DNA from: a virus
DNA length: 31,107 nt
Virus record (IMG/VR): IMGVR_UViG_3300030103_001165
Location: 1-31,107 of that record
Reading direction: 5' to 3' (one strand)
The position numbers and the translations under genes were made by a program. Below the pieces are notes generated by a model. That model saw only the letters and a program-made list of their open reading frames with translations. It was not told the origin of the DNA and ran no database searches. Shown here piece by piece: positions 2,017 through 31,107 of this stretch; position 1 is the first letter of the stretch, and each line of letters starts with the position of its first letter.

Positions 2017-3366
2017 ATGGAAAAAGGACATTACGGTGAATACAGCGGAAACGCTAAACACTCAAGAGTGACAGCATCTAATTATAAAGCAACTGAAAGA
2101 GATGACGCGGCTCATATTGATTACTTAAAAAGAGACGTGAACTATGATGCTAAACATGGTCATAATAATATAAATATGACAGCTGATGAAAAGCATATAT
2201 CTAAATTAGCAGGTGACATGAAATATGATAAAAGACATCATGGAATGTCAAGAAAAGAAAATCGTCAAGAAAAGCACCTGAGACAACAAGTAGAAAACTA
2301 CCCAAAACCAATGCCGGCTAACGCTCCAAGAGCATTTTTACAAACAGCTCCTAAGCGTTTATTTCAGTCTTATAGATCAGAAGGAAACCAGGGTTGGCCT
2401 ACTCAGGAATATTTACAAGGTAAATATGAAGATTATATGGGTTATGATGAAGAAAATCCAAACGCTCCTGGATTTAGCGCAAGAGATCTAGCTCCGTCTA
2501 GAAAAAGTAAAAGCGATAGACTTAGAGAAAGAGCAATGAAAAGATCTGAAAGAACTGGTGCTGAATCGGGTGATTATGATTATGAAGATGAAAAGGTTCA
2601 AAAACTACTTGAAAAAGCTAGAATGGCTGAAAGAACTGGAGATATGAAGATGACAAAAGAGATGACAACAAAGCCAAAAATGAAAGCTAATGAATATATC
2701 GAAGAACAACGTGATAGAGAACTAAACAAAATGATGGACGAACGTGATGGTATGTCTAGAATGAGTAAATTTGGTGGAAACATGCATGATTATCACAGAC
2801 ACATGGACGCACAAGGTCATATGACTAAAGATGGTGTTGTTGGTGGTGGTAAATACGGTAAAGGTGGTCACTATAAAGATTACGAAGGTATGTCTAGAGA
2901 TTCTTATGGTATGGATAGAAAATCATGTGGAACTAAATATACTGGTGTTGGCAGATATTCATCTGCATTACTTAATACTGGTTGGTCAGGTTTTAATTAT
3001 AATAAAGCATCTGATGAACTAAACTACATGCCAATTGAAGATGATATGAAAAGAGGTATGTCAAGAAAAGGTTCTAAACCAGATTATATCGATATAGATA
3101 ATGACGGTAATACAAAAGAATCAATGAAAGAAGCAGCTGATGGTATGTCAAGATATAAATCAAAAAAAAAAGGACTTTCTAGACTAGCGTCTCCATTAAA
3201 TGCTAAAGGAGATAAATGTCCAGAAAGTGGATGTGTACAAGAAAAAGGTAATGGAAAATGGGGAGTAATTAGTGGTAAAACTGGTAAATGGTGGGATGCT
3301 AATTATGATTCAAAAAGCTCTGCAGAAGCAGGATTAAGAGCTTATTTCGCAAACGGAGGAAACTAA
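2017..3366 (+). CDS. Highly charged GMSR-repeat protein (449 aa), unknown
   Basis: The protein is strongly hydrophilic, rich in Lys, Arg, Asp, Glu, Met, Tyr and His. The tetrapeptide GMSR occurs near residues 76, 245, 291, 347 and 376, with a GLSR variant near 389. Residues 356-368 (DYIDIDNDGNTKE) hold a DxDxDG loop like those that bind calcium. The last 50 or so residues form a more ordered region with two Cys (CPESGCVQ) followed by NGKWGVISGKTGKWWDA, which reads like a small beta domain. No signal peptide or membrane segment is present. The gene overlaps the next one by a single base (TAATG). I recall similar DxDxDG and GKWG motifs in uncultured marine phages but cannot give a function. A processed internal or scaffold-type protein is possible. 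Confidence 0.75.
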   Translation: MEKGHYGEYSGNAKHSRVTASNYKATERDDAAHIDYLKRDVNYDAKHGHNNINMTADEKHISKLAGDMKYDKRHHGMSRKENRQEKHLRQQVENYPKPMPANAPRAFLQTAPKRLFQSYRSEGNQGWPTQEYLQGKYEDYMGYDEENPNAPGFSARDLAPSRKSKSDRLRERAMKRSERTGAESGDYDYEDEKVQKLLEKARMAERTGDMKMTKEMTTKPKMKANEYIEEQRDRELNKMMDERDGMSRMSKFGGNMHDYHRHMDAQGHMTKDGVVGGGKYGKGGHYKDYEGMSRDSYGMDRKSCGTKYTGVGRYSSALLNTGWSGFNYNKASDELNYMPIEDDMKRGMSRKGSKPDYIDIDNDGNTKESMKEAADGMSRYKSKKKGLSRLASPLNAKGDKCPESGCVQEKGNGKWGVISGKTGKWWDANYDSKSSAEAGLRAYFANGGN

Positions 3367-3842
3367 TGAACATGCTAGATAAAATAAGAGGTAAATTTTT
3401 TAACACAAAGTCTTTTAATGTAGGTTTTAATAATAGATCTCCATTAAGCTATATAAGTAGTACTGGACCTAGTGTACCTTCATTTGCTGACCCTGGTTTA
3501 AAATCATTTGAACCTTCGGATTGGAAAGGAGCTTATGATACTTCAGATGCAGTAAGAGCAGAAACTCAAGCAGAAATTGCTAAAGGTGAAGGTGTTGGTG
3601 GTGCTATTTGGGGTGGAGCTAAAATGCTAGCTGGAGCTATAGGTGGTGGAAAGTTAGGTGATAAAGGCGGAGCATTTAGTGGAAAAGGACAAGAAATAGG
3701 AAACACAGGTGTGCTAACTACAGAAGCAAATAGAAATACGCAACTAATGGATAACATTGAGGGTATTTTTGGTGGACAAGCAGCACCACCTAGAAATAAG
3801 TTACAAGAATATAAAGATCTTAAAGAAGAATTAGGATTATAA
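3366..3842 (+). CDS. Gly-rich hypothetical virion-module protein (158 aa)
   Basis: The ATG overlaps the upstream stop by one base (TAATG), which implies translational coupling. A second in-frame ATG follows at 3372, so the first two residues are uncertain. The product has a basic N-terminus, a Ser/Pro-rich stretch, and around residues 75-100 a Gly/Ala-rich moderately hydrophobic segment (GGAIWGGAKMLAGAIGGG) that could insert in a membrane or pack as a helix. The C-terminus is charged (KLQEYKDLKEELG). There is no recognisable family. A minor virion or ejection protein would fit the composition, but this is only inferred. Confidence 0.65.
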   Translation: MNMLDKIRGKFFNTKSFNVGFNNRSPLSYISSTGPSVPSFADPGLKSFEPSDWKGAYDTSDAVRAETQAEIAKGEGVGGAIWGGAKMLAGAIGGGKLGDKGGAFSGKGQEIGNTGVLTTEANRNTQLMDNIEGIFGGQAAPPRNKLQEYKDLKEELGL

Positions 3843-4317: not shown

Positions 4318-4473
4318 ATGAAAGCTAGAGGATTAGGCGATTCTATCGCACAATTCACAAAAAAAACAGGTATTAAGGCTGTAGTCGGTAAAATGGCTAA
4401 CAGCCTTAATAAACCCTGTGGCTGTCAACAAAGACAAGATTATTTAAACAAAAAATTTCCTTACAAACAATGA
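4318..4473 (+). CDS. 51-aa CGC-motif microprotein, conserved-looking, unknown
   Basis: The ATG at 4318 follows the preceding stop by two bases. The gene ends in TGA that overlaps the next ATG (ATGA at 4470-4473), a classic coupled arrangement that strongly supports translation. The product starts MKARGLGDSIAQFTKKTG, carries a Cys-Gly-Cys at residues 34-36 followed by QQRQ, and ends LNKKFPYKQ. I recall small phage proteins with the same GLGD...CGC/GGC...LNKxFP pattern in Bacteroidota phages, but no function. Two Cys in CxC could bind a metal as an oligomer or take part in redox chemistry. Its coupling to a HExxH protein hints at shared function. Confidence 0.7.
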   Translation: MKARGLGDSIAQFTKKTGIKAVVGKMANSLNKPCGCQQRQDYLNKKFPYKQ

Positions 4474-4814
4474 GAATAAATTTAAGTAAAAGATTTACAA
4501 TGGATTCTCCATTGAAAATGGATAACACTCCTGTGTATCAAGTTGATTTGGATGAGGGTATTTTAGGTAAAGGAAATAAAAACGGTACTATATTAGTATC
4601 TGATAAGATAACTGATCCTGAAGAAAGAGAAAGCATTATAAAACATGAAAGAATTCATGTTGACCAAGTAAAAAGAGGCGACTTAGATTATGACGATGAA
4701 AACGTTTATTGGAAAGGTAAAACATATCCAAGAAGCGAAATGAACGAAGGTAGTCCAGATTTACCTTGGGAAAAAGAAGCATATAGTAAAACTGATCCGT
4801 TCGAAAAATATTAA
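4470..4814 (+). CDS. Putative small zinc metallopeptidase-like protein (HExxH)
   Basis: The 114-aa protein contains HERIH at residues 59-63, an exact HExxH zinc-peptidase motif, placed in a predicted helix after EERESIIK. About 40 residues downstream, WEKEAY (Glu101 and Glu103) offers a Glu as third zinc ligand, as in gluzincins. Between them lies an aromatic/acidic stretch (DYDDENVYWKGKTYPR). The gene starts inside the stop of the CGC microprotein. There is no signal peptide. Possible roles are cleavage of a virion protein during maturation, action on host envelope or peptidoglycan crosslinks, or attack on a host factor. The motif is seen directly; activity and substrate are not known. With no recognised prohead protease or endolysin in the window, either role remains open. 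Confidence 0.72.
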   Translation: MRINLSKRFTMDSPLKMDNTPVYQVDLDEGILGKGNKNGTILVSDKITDPEERESIIKHERIHVDQVKRGDLDYDDENVYWKGKTYPRSEMNEGSPDLPWEKEAYSKTDPFEKY

Positions 4815-4820
4815 TACAAT

Positions 4821-6002
4821 ATGGAATCACCAATTTTAAATAAAAGATTTAACTTAAAAAATCAACTTATTAAAGATGAGTTTGCTAGATTAAAAAATTT
4901 TAATTTATCAGATGAAAGATCTTCTGAACCATCGATGTCTGAAGGTTTAGCTAATCAAATGGCTACTGGAACAGATGAAAGTAGAGGTACTGAGTCAAAA
5001 GGTAGAGCGTTCGGTGATTATAGCAATAGACTTGGTGACAGTAAATTTTATGGAGAATATGATCAATTTGGTACTGCTAGAAGAGATATAGGAGCTGATC
5101 CAAGAACTGGAGACTTAGTAGTTAAAGGAGATTCTTATGCTCTAAGAGATTTTAATGTACCTTTTAATGAAGCAGGTGGAGGAACTAATAAGAAAATGAG
5201 AAAAAAATATCCTCTTATATCAAGTTATGCTGATCCAAGACCTGACGAAATAAACCCTATGTATATAAACCCAAGTGAAGGGCTGGGGCGTGAGTATGTT
5301 TCTCAGCAAATTAGAAATAGAGATGCTGGTGTTGATTATGATGAAAACGCTATTTCAAGTTTTCAACAAGGAAGTGGAACTCAGTACTACATGCCTCAAC
5401 AAATGAATACTTTTGAAAGTACTATAGGAAGAGATCCATCAACAAGAACTAACCGTGGTGGTGCAGATTACGTTATGGGTACAGGAACTGGTGATACAAT
5501 GGACAAGCGAGAACAAGAAGCAAGATATGCAGTTAACGCTAGAGATACAGCTACTCAGTCTGTACAAAACGCTATTAATTCAGGAAATTTTGATGAAGCT
5601 CAAAATATATTAAATTCAGGTTTTAATACAATAAACGAGGATATTAGTTATACTCAAAGACCAAACAGAGCATGGCAAGGAACTTCGTATGGTAGTAGAA
5701 CAAGAGGAGGTGAAGAAGGAGCTCCTAGAATGGATGAAAGACCATCACTATCTAACCCAGGTATATTTTATGGTGCTAGAGTTAGAGATAATTTAGAGTA
5801 CAGAATGAATACTGCTGCTGACAATTATAATACTGATTATTTACCTACTAGATCAGAAGAAGTAGATAAAGAAGCTTATGACAGATTGACAAAACAAAGA
5901 TTTAGAAACGTAGGTAATAGAGGTAACACGTTTATGCAAAATAGAAATCCTTTAACATCTTCTGATGCAAGAACTGGAGATATAAATTTTGGTGGACAAT
6001 AA
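4821..6002 (+). CDS. Hypothetical hydrophilic protein (393 aa), possible minor virion protein
   Basis: The ATG at 4821 lies six bases after the previous stop. The 393-residue product is hydrophilic, rich in Arg, Asn, Asp, Gly and Tyr, and has no membrane segment, signal peptide or Cys. Its N-terminus (MESPILNKRFNLKNQL) weakly echoes that of the HExxH protein (INLSKRFTMDSPL). The rest looks loosely ordered, with repeated R-D/T-G turns (ADPRTGD near 92-98, DARTGD near the end). I recognise no family. Position between the metallopeptidase-like gene and the holin does not settle its role; it could be an internal virion protein or a substrate of the protease. Confidence 0.68.
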   Translation: MESPILNKRFNLKNQLIKDEFARLKNFNLSDERSSEPSMSEGLANQMATGTDESRGTESKGRAFGDYSNRLGDSKFYGEYDQFGTARRDIGADPRTGDLVVKGDSYALRDFNVPFNEAGGGTNKKMRKKYPLISSYADPRPDEINPMYINPSEGLGREYVSQQIRNRDAGVDYDENAISSFQQGSGTQYYMPQQMNTFESTIGRDPSTRTNRGGADYVMGTGTGDTMDKREQEARYAVNARDTATQSVQNAINSGNFDEAQNILNSGFNTINEDISYTQRPNRAWQGTSYGSRTRGGEEGAPRMDERPSLSNPGIFYGARVRDNLEYRMNTAADNYNTDYLPTRSEEVDKEAYDRLTKQRFRNVGNRGNTFMQNRNPLTSSDARTGDINFGGQ

Positions 6003-6003
6003 A

Positions 6004-6456
6004 ATGGCTAAAAAATTTAAAGATACTACAGTTGGACAATTACTGTTTGGTGCAGCGTCTATAATAAATCCTACACTAGGAAATGTATTACAAGGCGTAA
6101 CATCTCCTAAAGAAGCTATTGCTGTAATTGCAAAATCAGATGTTTCTTTAGATGATAAAATAAAATTACAACAATTAATATACGAACAACAGAATAAAGA
6201 GATAGAAGCTATTACTTCTAGATGGAAGTCAGATTCTATGTCAGATTCTTGGATGTCAAAAAACGTACGTCCATTAGTTCTAATATGGTGTATTGTTGTA
6301 TTTTCTTTTGCAGGAATATTAGATAGTGTTGAAAGCATACCTTTTACAATACATGATAATTGGAATTCAACTTTTGAAGCAGTTATGATGGCGGTTGTTT
6401 TAGCCTATTTCGGAGGACGCACAACTGAAAAAGCTGCTAGCATGTTTAAAAAGTAA
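6004..6456 (+). CDS. Probable holin, 3TM type (GTA_holin_3TM-like)
   Basis: The ATG at 6004, directly after the upstream stop, is preferred over an in-frame GTG at 5989 that would overlap the previous gene. The 150-aa product has a weakly hydrophobic N-terminal segment (about 10-31), a charged amphipathic stretch with SRWKSDSMSDSWMSKNVRP (72-90), a clear transmembrane helix (90-106) and a second one (123-137), then a basic tail. The order amphipathic EAITSRW...SDSW, RPL, helix, W, helix, AYFGGR is what I know of the 3TM holin family linked to release of gene-transfer agents and phages. Its role would be to permeabilise the inner membrane at lysis. No endolysin is recognisable beside it. Confidence 0.75.
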   Translation: MAKKFKDTTVGQLLFGAASIINPTLGNVLQGVTSPKEAIAVIAKSDVSLDDKIKLQQLIYEQQNKEIEAITSRWKSDSMSDSWMSKNVRPLVLIWCIVVFSFAGILDSVESIPFTIHDNWNSTFEAVMMAVVLAYFGGRTTEKAASMFKK

Positions 6457-27606: not shown

Positions 27607-30600
27607 ATGGAAGAAGAAAACATACTACCAGAAGGCGCAACATCATTTACACCTTTAAATTTAGATATTGATGCGCAGTTATTCCCAGATGAATCTGATG
27701 ACGATGAAAAAGATAAAAACTTATCTAAAGAAGTTAATGTTTTTGGTACTGGAAATATTGCTATAGATGAAATATTATTTCCTGTAAATCCAAGCTTAGC
27801 TACTATTGTAGCTGGTGACGATGTTCAAGCTACTGATGAAGAAGGTAATGTAATGTTAGGTGCAACTGGTGATCTTGAAGATGATGGTCAAGATGCTAGA
27901 AATCTACAGTTAAGCATGCAAACTAAAAAATCTTTAGCTACACAAGATGATGCTTATATTAAACAAAGAACTCAAAAATTTGAAGATGTTCAAAATGCTA
28001 TAAATGAAATTGAAACTGAGGTTAAGGTTTATGATTATAAAATGACTCTTAAAAATCAGAAAATGCAAGTACCTGTTACAGCTAGCAATTTCAATGAGAT
28101 TTATCAAGCTTTAGATGCTTATGAAGAAGCTTCAATAAAAGAAACTGGTGTAGGTTTAGGTATGTATTCTACTCAAAATACTGAAGAGACTGAAAACCTA
28201 TTAATGCAAATGAGTAACAATGCTGGTATATTAGATTTTAACTCAGCAAGTACTCTTAATGTAATGGGTGATTATAACATTGCAACTGATGGTTATTTTA
28301 ATCCTGATGGAAAAATACCAGAAATAAACTGGAACCCTACTGACAAAGAATTAACAGTTGCAAGAGAAACTAAATATAATTGGGATAACTTAAAAGACTT
28401 ATCTCCAGAAGATATTGACAAAATAAAATTAGATCCAGCTTTTGAAGCATACGCAATAAGTAAGATGCTAGAAGGACAAGGCGAGGGCGCAAACATGAGA
28501 GACGTGTTTCAACAAGAAGGAATGGATGATTACGCTACATTTATGACATGGGCTTCAGAAAGTTTTAAAAGAATTAAGCTTGCTGATCCAACGTTAGCTG
28601 GTTGGCGTAAAGTAATTCAATCAAAGGTTGATCAAGAGTGGTATGGTGGTAAAAGATTAGAATTTGAAAAACAATTTATAGAACCTTGTGCAAAAGAAAA
28701 CGATGGAGTTGCTACAGAAGATTGTTTATTAAGACATCAAGAAGCTGCGTCCGCGTGGTGGAATGCTAGATATAATAAATTGTACAACGAGAATGAATAC
28801 ATTCAAGCTAATGATAGGCAATATGCTATAGGTTTTAGTAAGTTAATGAACAAACTACGTGAGCCTTATTTTAGAACTAAAATTGACGTATACAGAGAAT
28901 TAGATAATCAATTCGAGCAAGATGGTATGACTTTTACTAATTTTGCAAAAGACGCTATGGCTAAAGTAGGTTTTAGTATGGATCAAACTAAAGGCTTGAT
29001 AAGTATGATGTACACCAACAGTGGTGTTACTGGTACTACAGCAAGAAATGAATTAATTCAAAATTATAATTCTCCTGGCTTCCAAGATTTTGCTGAAGAG
29101 TCTGGTATTTATGATCAAGCAATTAAAACGTTTAGAGGTGGTGGTGGAGCTGAAACAGGATTTGGAGAAGGTGGATATTTACAAGGAAACTTATTAAACT
29201 TAAGTAATACTTTTAATATAGTAGGTAATAAAATAACAAAGTCCACTTTAGGTACTCCTGAGCAAGGAGATTTTTATTACGCTAATAAAGTACCAGGCGG
29301 TGTAGAATATGTATTACATGGAGGTTCTGGAAATTTAGCTGATAGAGAAGGTACTATAAAACTTGATAAAGATAATTTCTTAGAATACTTTGATTTACCA
29401 GAAGATTTTAATGTTAGAGATTTAAACAAAGTAGGAGCAAGAGCAGCTTGGGAAATGGTTAAACAACATGGCCAAGCTTATTATTCACCTATTAAAGTAC
29501 AAGAATTTTCTCAAGCTAAAAAAGTAATAAACGGTATAGACAAATGGGTTGTAGCTGGTAAAGCGAAAAACTGGTTTAACCAAAGTGCTGTAGCTAGAAT
29601 GTACGGTGGAACAGGTTGGAGATATGGAGACATGACTATTAGAGACGTGTTTGAAGGTAGAGATGCTACTGAAGAAGAGCAAATGGTTTCTAGTGTTTTA
29701 GATTACGATATAGAGCAGACTGGAGTTTTACTTAATAAAACAGCTGAAATGCTTGAAGCTGAACAAGCTGCTCAGTTTGCTTTAGATCCTGATGTTGAAT
29801 TTGATGATTTAACAAGTTTAATAAGACATATAATAGGTCAAGGTGATACCATGGTGCCAATGTATCTTGGAGGTATATTACAAGGTACAGGTAAAGTTGT
29901 TTCTAAAGTTCCTGGTTATGGAAAAGCAGTTGGATACACTATGGAAGGTTCGGGTAAAGTGCTATCGATTTTAGGTAGTTTAAACATGATGGGTAAAGAA
30001 TATACTCAAAATGTTGTAGAAGCCTGGAGACAAATTATAATGGCAAATAATGGAGGCAAACCTCCTACAGTAGAAGAGTTTGCTGCTATGGCTAGTGATC
30101 CTGCTAGTGATGAAATAATTCTTAAAAGTATGGGTGGAGCTGTAATCTCTAGTCTTAGTGAAAAGGCAGGGGTTAGTTCTACAATGCTTGGTTTTAAACC
30201 AGGAGCAAAGCAATTAGCTTCTTTATATAGAAAACAATTTGCTGAATTTTTTAAACAAACACCAAAATGGGTTTTAACTACAGCTCTTGGTGCTGGTGGT
30301 GAAGGTATTACAGAGGCTTTTCAAGGAAAAATACATGAGACTACTGTTAACTGGTCATTAGGTATGGGTCTTGGAGAAAGCTGGAACAACTCTAATTGGG
30401 ATGAAGATGGTTTTCAAGTTGGTTGGAGAATTGGTTTAGCTTTACCGGTAGCACAATCTACTGTTTCACAAAGTTTAGTTGAAATAAACCAAGTGGGTAT
30501 GGAGGTAGCTAGTAAGTTAATAATGGATCCTAGTAAATCTAATAGTATTTTTGCTCCTATGGCAGCAGCTAATAATTTCTTTAAAGAAGCTATAGCTGAT

Positions 30601-31107
30601 GTACAAAAAAGAATAGACAACAACAATATACCTAAAGAACAAGGTTTAAATGCCATAGCTGATCTTTCTAGTCTTAGAACTAATGGTATGAAAATACCTA
30701 CTACAATGCCTGTTGAGCAAAGAAAAGAATTTTTAGAATTATTACTAGCTCAAAGCAATTTAAAACAAAAAATAAAAGAAACTAACAACAAAGAGATAAG
30801 CGAAGGCAACGGAGATCTTGCTGCTTTGGATCTTGTAAATGCAGAAATAGTTTCGTTAACTGAACAAGAAGTTACTAGAGAACTTTACATGAAAAACATG
30901 GGTAACGTTCAGAACATAGTAGATCAAACTTCTAAAGGTAAAGTAAAAATATTTAGAGAGAAAAACACTGAATCTATAAATAGTAGAATTGAAGAGTTAA
31001 ATAACAGTGGTTGGAAGATTAAAAAACAAAGCAAATCTAATGCTGGTTATGGTAGTATATATCAAAAAGGTGATCAACAAATAATACTTCTTAATGAACA
31101 AGAAATA
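27607..31107 (+). CDS. Giant virion/ejection-type protein, 3' end beyond the window (at least 1167 aa)
   Basis: An ATG at 27607, seven bases after the double stop of the previous gene, opens a frame that stays open for 1167 codons to the last base. The N-terminus is acidic (DESDDDEKDKN near 28-38). Middle parts are mixed helical, with aromatic patches (WWNARYNKLYNENEY). Around residues 749-795 and 888-905 lie Gly/Ala/Val-rich weakly hydrophobic stretches (YLGGILQGTGKVVSKVPGYG; WVLTTALGAGGEGITEAF), as found in ejection proteins that form a trans-envelope channel. Large genes at this position in podoviruses encode internal proteins, lytic transglycosylases or virion RNA polymerases. I see no DxDGD-type polymerase motif or transglycosylase motif in this part, so the function stays open. 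Confidence 0.7.
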   Translation, partial: MEEENILPEGATSFTPLNLDIDAQLFPDESDDDEKDKNLSKEVNVFGTGNIAIDEILFPVNPSLATIVAGDDVQATDEEGNVMLGATGDLEDDGQDARNLQLSMQTKKSLATQDDAYIKQRTQKFEDVQNAINEIETEVKVYDYKMTLKNQKMQVPVTASNFNEIYQALDAYEEASIKETGVGLGMYSTQNTEETENLLMQMSNNAGILDFNSASTLNVMGDYNIATDGYFNPDGKIPEINWNPTDKELTVARETKYNWDNLKDLSPEDIDKIKLDPAFEAYAISKMLEGQGEGANMRDVFQQEGMDDYATFMTWASESFKRIKLADPTLAGWRKVIQSKVDQEWYGGKRLEFEKQFIEPCAKENDGVATEDCLLRHQEAASAWWNARYNKLYNENEYIQANDRQYAIGFSKLMNKLREPYFRTKIDVYRELDNQFEQDGMTFTNFAKDAMAKVGFSMDQTKGLISMMYTNSGVTGTTARNELIQNYNSPGFQDFAEESGIYDQAIKTFRGGGGAETGFGEGGYLQGNLLNLSNTFNIVGNKITKSTLGTPEQGDFYYANKVPGGVEYVLHGGSGNLADREGTIKLDKDNFLEYFDLPEDFNVRDLNKVGARAAWEMVKQHGQAYYSPIKVQEFSQAKKVINGIDKWVVAGKAKNWFNQSAVARMYGGTGWRYGDMTIRDVFEGRDATEEEQMVSSVLDYDIEQTGVLLNKTAEMLEAEQAAQFALDPDVEFDDLTSLIRHIIGQGDTMVPMYLGGILQGTGKVVSKVPGYGKAVGYTMEGSGKVLSILGSLNMMGKEYTQNVVEAWRQIIMANNGGKPPTVEEFAAMASDPASDEIILKSMGGAVISSLSEKAGVSSTMLGFKPGAKQLASLYRKQFAEFFKQTPKWVLTTALGAGGEGITEAFQGKIHETTVNWSLGMGLGESWNNSNWDEDGFQVGWRIGLALPVAQSTVSQSLVEINQVGMEVASKLIMDPSKSNSIFAPMAAANNFFKEAIADVQKRIDNNNIPKEQGLNAIADLSSLRTNGMKIPTTMPVEQRKEFLELLLAQSNLKQKIKETNNKEISEGNGDLAALDLVNAEIVSLTEQEVTRELYMKNMGNVQNIVDQTSKGKVKIFREKNTESINSRIEELNNSGWKIKKQSKSNAGYGSIYQKGDQQIILLNEQEI

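Follow-up and report, generated by a model that had tools for sequence, protein, structure and literature searches.

The window analysed here, 31,107 nucleotides of the IMG/VR virus record IMGVR_UViG_3300030103_001165, encodes a 114-amino acid protein that very probably belongs to the gluzincin-type zinc peptidases. This class assignment is well supported, with zinc binding and catalysis predicted, and would place the protein among the smallest predicted metallopeptidases. Its gene, judged from gene order to be late, belongs to the core set of a marine podovirus clade that occurs in hundreds of metagenomic contigs, and it carries no assigned function in the libraries searched. The protein adds a new, tiny and widespread member to the phage gluzincin-like proteins, and its setting is unusual. 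The relevant features of the window are as follows.

2017–3366, + strand: 449-aa cassette protein with GMSR repeats and LSRLASPLN at residue 392 (SPLN carrier)
3366–3842, + strand: 158-aa cassette protein with FNNRSPLS at residue 25 (FSNRSPLN in relatives)
4318–4473, + strand: 51-aa CGC microprotein (PCGC), conserved, usually directly upstream of the HExxH gene, with a weak match to phrog_32048
4470–4814, + strand: 114-aa HExxH protein, predicted gluzincin-type zinc minipeptidase (ATG start; reading frame, conservation and predicted fold)
4506–4517, + strand: SPLK, residues 13–16 of the HExxH protein, an imperfect match to the cassette motif
4644–4658, + strand: codons of HERIH (HExxH), residues 59–63, in predicted helix 50–69
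4770–4772, + strand: codon of E101, the predicted third zinc ligand, in the WExEAY motif and predicted helix 99–107
4821–6002, + strand: 393-aa variable cassette protein with the N-terminus MESPILN, between the HExxH gene and the holin
6004–6456, + strand: holin (phrog_3427, E 6e-18)

The initial annotation had singled out an exact HExxH sequence and a downstream WEKEAY (residues 100–105) in this small protein, and both were confirmed in the reading frame. A single scan of IMG/VR identified 356 stretches encoding relatives and an alignment-based scan of IMG/VR at least 469, while 84,980 prokaryote species genomes yielded ten, which all lie in metagenome-assembled bins and are probably contigs of viral origin. 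Each of the 152 loci initially examined encodes HExxH, the xx positions being variable. When 96 diverse members were aligned (30–96% identity, with 30% as the lowest identity to the window protein), E60, H63, Q66 and E101 showed no variation (96/96), H59 and W100 were each conserved in 95 members, and E103 in just 84. With hundreds of relatives in IMG/VR, the open reading frame and its motif are not a chance occurrence. Either E101 or E103 had been put forward as the third zinc ligand; because E101 is invariant and E103 varies, E101 is the likely one. The single aligned member lacking H59 represents a subclade with EExxH (L194:2800–3171, L200:2483–2854 and L225:3271–3642) that has lost the first histidine but kept E60, H63 and E101, and no second HExxH copy was found in these three contigs.

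The family protein is a separate unit of 101–125 residues rather than part of a multidomain protein. In L089:1321–3336 and in L132, L142, L147, L155 and L160, however, the HExxH domain continues into a long fused C-terminal extension, giving proteins of up to 671 aa. PHROG families 10499 and 16532, both of unassigned function, match residues 54–109 (E ~5e-7); these are longer families (138–149 aa), whereas the clade of the window forms its own close-knit group.

An AlphaFold model built with the 96 sequences has a mean pLDDT of 88.9, with values of about 92 or more for residues 21–110 and lower ones at both ends. It places HExxH on helix 50–69 and E101 on helix 99–107, two consecutive helices with short strands before and between them, which is the arrangement expected of a gluzincin. 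From this pattern and from the structural neighbours we infer that H59, H63 and E101 would converge on one site. The nearest PDB structures found by Foldseek were IrrE/PprI (3dti), abylysin (4jiu) and selecase, with probabilities up to 0.9 but E values of at least 0.3; CapP was also among the nearest folds. A Foldseek search against predicted viral structures gave 12 matches at E 0.001 or better, several of them named SprT-like. PDB sequence searches with the protein returned nothing relevant. When 17 members were compared with Pfam, the matches at the motif were mainly to metallopeptidases (DUF6782, M76, M56, M91 and M78) and all fell below cut-off: DUF6782 (PF20573) matched eight members, at best with 4e-4 and 17.7 bits against a curated cut-off of 27, and PF06114 (M78, IrrE/ImmA) matched one member below cut-off at E 0.23. 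The proposal of a minimal HExxH and glutamate metallopeptidase encoded among phage late genes is therefore supported by the conserved motif and the predicted two-helix layout.

Among the closest known counterparts are the minigluzincins abylysin (4jiu), jannalysin (4jix) and selecase (4qhi), which are likewise stand-alone HExxH proteins of ~105–115 residues with a downstream glutamate helix. About 52 residues, roughly half of the protein, superpose on them (TM ~0.37–0.40, E 0.3–3), with no match in sequence; the minigluzincins are archaeal gene products whereas this is a phage late gene, and no zymogen form is shown here. IrrE/ImmA peptidases (M78) have the HExxH motif and glutamate helix in common with the protein, and IrrE 3dti is a top fold match, but the HExxH protein has neither an HTH nor a GAF domain and its genomic setting differs. 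The zincin metallopeptidases of polyvalent proteins, to which we infer that DUF6782 belongs, are also phage zincins with HExxH and a glutamate on the next helix; here, by contrast, the protein is separate and small, and every DUF6782 match lies below the curated cut-off. A giant late protein truncated by the end of the window (27607–31107) has a counterpart of 3,859 aa in MW202828 (741–12320) with a weak match to the DUF6782 metallopeptidase.

Across a terminase tree covering 124 genomes, 88 of the 90 members of one podovirus clade carried the HExxH gene, and none of the 33 members of its sister clade did; the former count rose to 89 of 90 when a relocated copy was found for L317. In that contig (L406, 3331–3681) the HExxH and CGC cassette has moved within the genome, and another motif, MM(N/K)PGS(K/R)E.NTPG(T/S)F, is common to two proteins. 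Among annotated relatives, MW202828 has the closest terminase (63% identity), followed by the Flavobacterium elemo and Cellulophaga phages. Two further HExxH phage contigs, L082 and L087, lie within archaeal bins (labelled Woesearchaeota and Euryarchaeota) and are probably mis-binned, because their terminases place both in the same phage clade. The HExxH gene lies upstream of the terminase, between the tail-fibre and cassette genes and the holin, and the usual order is CGC protein, HExxH protein, an optional variable protein and holin. The slot of the 393-aa protein is occupied by a different protein, or by none, in many phages. Long, charged, low-complexity proteins with repeated GMSR(K/Y/Q) units also occur near the HExxH gene (window 2017–3366; L074; L055:6930).

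The CGC microprotein, with the conserved pattern GLGD..TKATGIK..PCGC..R..LN..FP, precedes the HExxH gene. The start of the HExxH frame overlaps the stop of the CGC frame in a 4-base ATGA, as had been noted initially, and the coupling of the two genes proved real and common (the CGC gene immediately precedes the HExxH gene in 121 of the 134 loci with both) but not obligatory. An obligatory pairing was rejected, as the CGC protein occurs without the HExxH protein in MW202828 and other genomes.

The most surprising part of our findings is a short sequence, SPLN, often in the form (M/L)SRKxSPLN, that is common to many cassette proteins with otherwise unrelated bodies. It was found in 32 protein clusters (6.6 expected) and lay within the first 30 residues in 79 of 161 cases (24 expected). 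When all 4-mers were counted with none selected beforehand, SPLN was the one most often shared by different proteins of the same genome, in 27 of the 83 HExxH genomes, and it was not among the top shared words in 30 genomes without HExxH. In genomes with SPLN, the cassette contains 91 occurrences against 1.0 expected, and the terminase and downstream genes contain none. The terminase and downstream proteins are also poor in SP[LFAIM], with 15 occurrences where 46 were expected; an interpretation of this as site avoidance was not used, because few protein families are involved.

The fuller form is an N-terminal tag in which M.Y.Q precedes either NNPLSRKSSPLN, FGxSRxSPLN or a variant of these, summarised as MxYxQ..SRKSSPLN. 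It is carried by 87 of 1368 cassette (upstream) proteins, in 23 unrelated body clusters, and by 0 of 132 downstream proteins; outside the HExxH genomes it was detected in 2 of 367 proteins, both unrelated and membrane-like. Two or more proteins with the MxYxQ tag were found in 24 of the 83 HExxH genomes, most genomes being without two. Examples of MxYxQ..(NP/FG)xSRKSSPLN are seen in L055:4573–7832, L273:4084–6599, L111:3743–5286 and L127:3397–5545, among others. A Pfam scan of the tagged proteins found only DUF6321, and a limited literature search met no earlier description of the tag, although one may exist. The motif is less pronounced in the window, where the 449-aa protein has SPLN, the 158-aa protein SPLS, the HExxH protein itself SPLK and the 393-aa protein SPIL. 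Many members of the HExxH family begin with MAFKMKxSP[FY], which resembles the tag; in the 96-member alignment P14 is kept in 85, and residue 13 is mostly proline, not serine.

An initial count gave 165 SPLN in HExxH loci and none in CGC-only loci. The idea of perfect co-occurrence was weakened by terminase-based sampling, in which 11 genomes without HExxH had one SPLN each, all in one homologous protein of 156–161 aa, and by the finding that about half of the HExxH genomes are without SPLN. For the latter reason, and because the clades differ by what is essentially a single event, the co-residence of tag and enzyme is only suggestive of a link between them. The EExxH phages are without the tag, but this does not discriminate because some phages with an intact HExxH are without it too.

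According to the reading that we tentatively favour, the protein may be a small soluble peptidase of the gluzincin type that cuts phage proteins of its own cassette, the putative substrates, during virion assembly. Zinc would be bound by H59 and H63 from one helix together with E101 from the following one, and E60 would activate water. The HExxH protein would be translated together with the CGC microprotein, from a gene placed before the holin, and the peptidase would act on cassette-encoded proteins as virions assemble. The candidate substrates are the unrelated cassette proteins with SPLN or the MxYxQ..SRKSSPLN tag, whose processing would compare with propeptide removal in T4. In that phage, propeptides containing capsid-targeting sequences are common to divergent internal proteins and are removed by gp21 (PMC9026906), and the zincins of phage polyvalent proteins have been predicted to process virion proteins, P1 DdrB being processed before packaging (PMC5512222). 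We favour processing of tagged virion proteins because it fits the presumed late expression and cytosolic nature of the protein, its core status and these two precedents. Counting against it, the position before the holin fits a function in lysis equally well, the Foldseek E values against PDB are at least 0.3, and we found no proteome for a phage of this kind.

The tag is reminiscent of the T4 capsid-targeting propeptides: in both cases a short N-terminal sequence stands on unrelated phage proteins and may be removed by a protease. The T4 protease gp21 is, however, unrelated and has its own cleavage logo, and packaging or cleavage of the tagged proteins is here hypothetical. A more specific form of the processing model, in which the N-terminal signal of at least 23 unrelated cassette proteins would send them into the virion, with the 114-aa gluzincin removing the signal or cutting at it, as gp21 does but with an unrelated zinc enzyme, strikes us as doubtful. 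If the HExxH protein processes the tagged proteins, phages would have a second, independently evolved way of targeting and maturing proteins inside their heads, and the tag would predict which uncharacterised small phage proteins are handled together.

Lysis offers an alternative context that we judge rather unlikely, in which the protein would assist the M15 endolysin and the holin: released by the holin, it would cut envelope or lipoprotein targets and so help the cell to burst. The holin is indeed within 2.5 kb downstream of the HExxH gene in 212 of the 225 loci with both, and an M15 peptidase lies 0.4–3.1 kb upstream of it in 19 loci and co-occurs with it in long contigs. However, the M15 gene is distant in some contigs (L048), the HExxH protein sequence shows no apparent signal peptide or membrane segment and no sign of membrane or envelope targeting was seen for it, its fold neighbours are intracellular regulators and minigluzincins, and the neighbouring tagged proteins do not resemble lysis proteins.

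ImmA/IrrE-type peptidases cut repressors. By analogy, the protein could be a protease, cytoplasmic or ejected, with a regulator or defence protein of the host as its target, which would agree with IrrE/PprI and CapP being among the nearest folds. T4-like and jumbo phages (XacN1, Melnitz) carry distant homologues in their accessory regions, one of them annotated as ImmA/IrrE, and zincins of polyvalent proteins have also been proposed as effectors (PMC5512222). Against this, the gene is a near-universal late gene of its clade, located between virion and holin genes rather than in an accessory early position, and no regulator gene is paired with it; we consider a host-directed function unlikely. 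It is more improbable that the protein retains the fold as a non-catalytic, zinc-binding structural component or chaperone. The EExxH subclade, which retained the gene after losing the first histidine, and the CGC partner, which suggests metal or disulfide chemistry, point in that direction, but E60 is the catalytic base and not a ligand, and a purely structural zinc site would not require it to be invariant.

The initial annotation had argued from a missing enzyme: neither an endolysin nor a prohead protease was visible, so the small protein might stand in for one. Such a replacement is very improbable, since, although neither enzyme was found among the window proteins scanned, the window is only a 31-kb genome fragment, the HExxH gene does not adjoin portal, scaffold or capsid genes, and an M15 endolysin and the HExxH gene occur together in at least eight long carrier contigs (L048, L054, L122, L130, L141, L143, L157 and L161), so that the HExxH protein would not be the only muralytic enzyme of these phages. 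Mutual exclusion of M15 and HExxH, as expected of endolysin substitution, was tested and failed. Peptidase_M15_3 (PF08291) was detected in 21 of 47 long records, and MW202828 and the elemo phages carry an M15 peptidase or D-Ala-D-Ala carboxypeptidase in their late region. The genomes of the annotated relatives are ~60 kb. The L130 contig (IMGVR_UViG_3300047157_000162) has 129.5 kb and contains two M15 and two HExxH copies; as both genes are duplicated ~62–64 kb apart, it is probably an assembled genome dimer.
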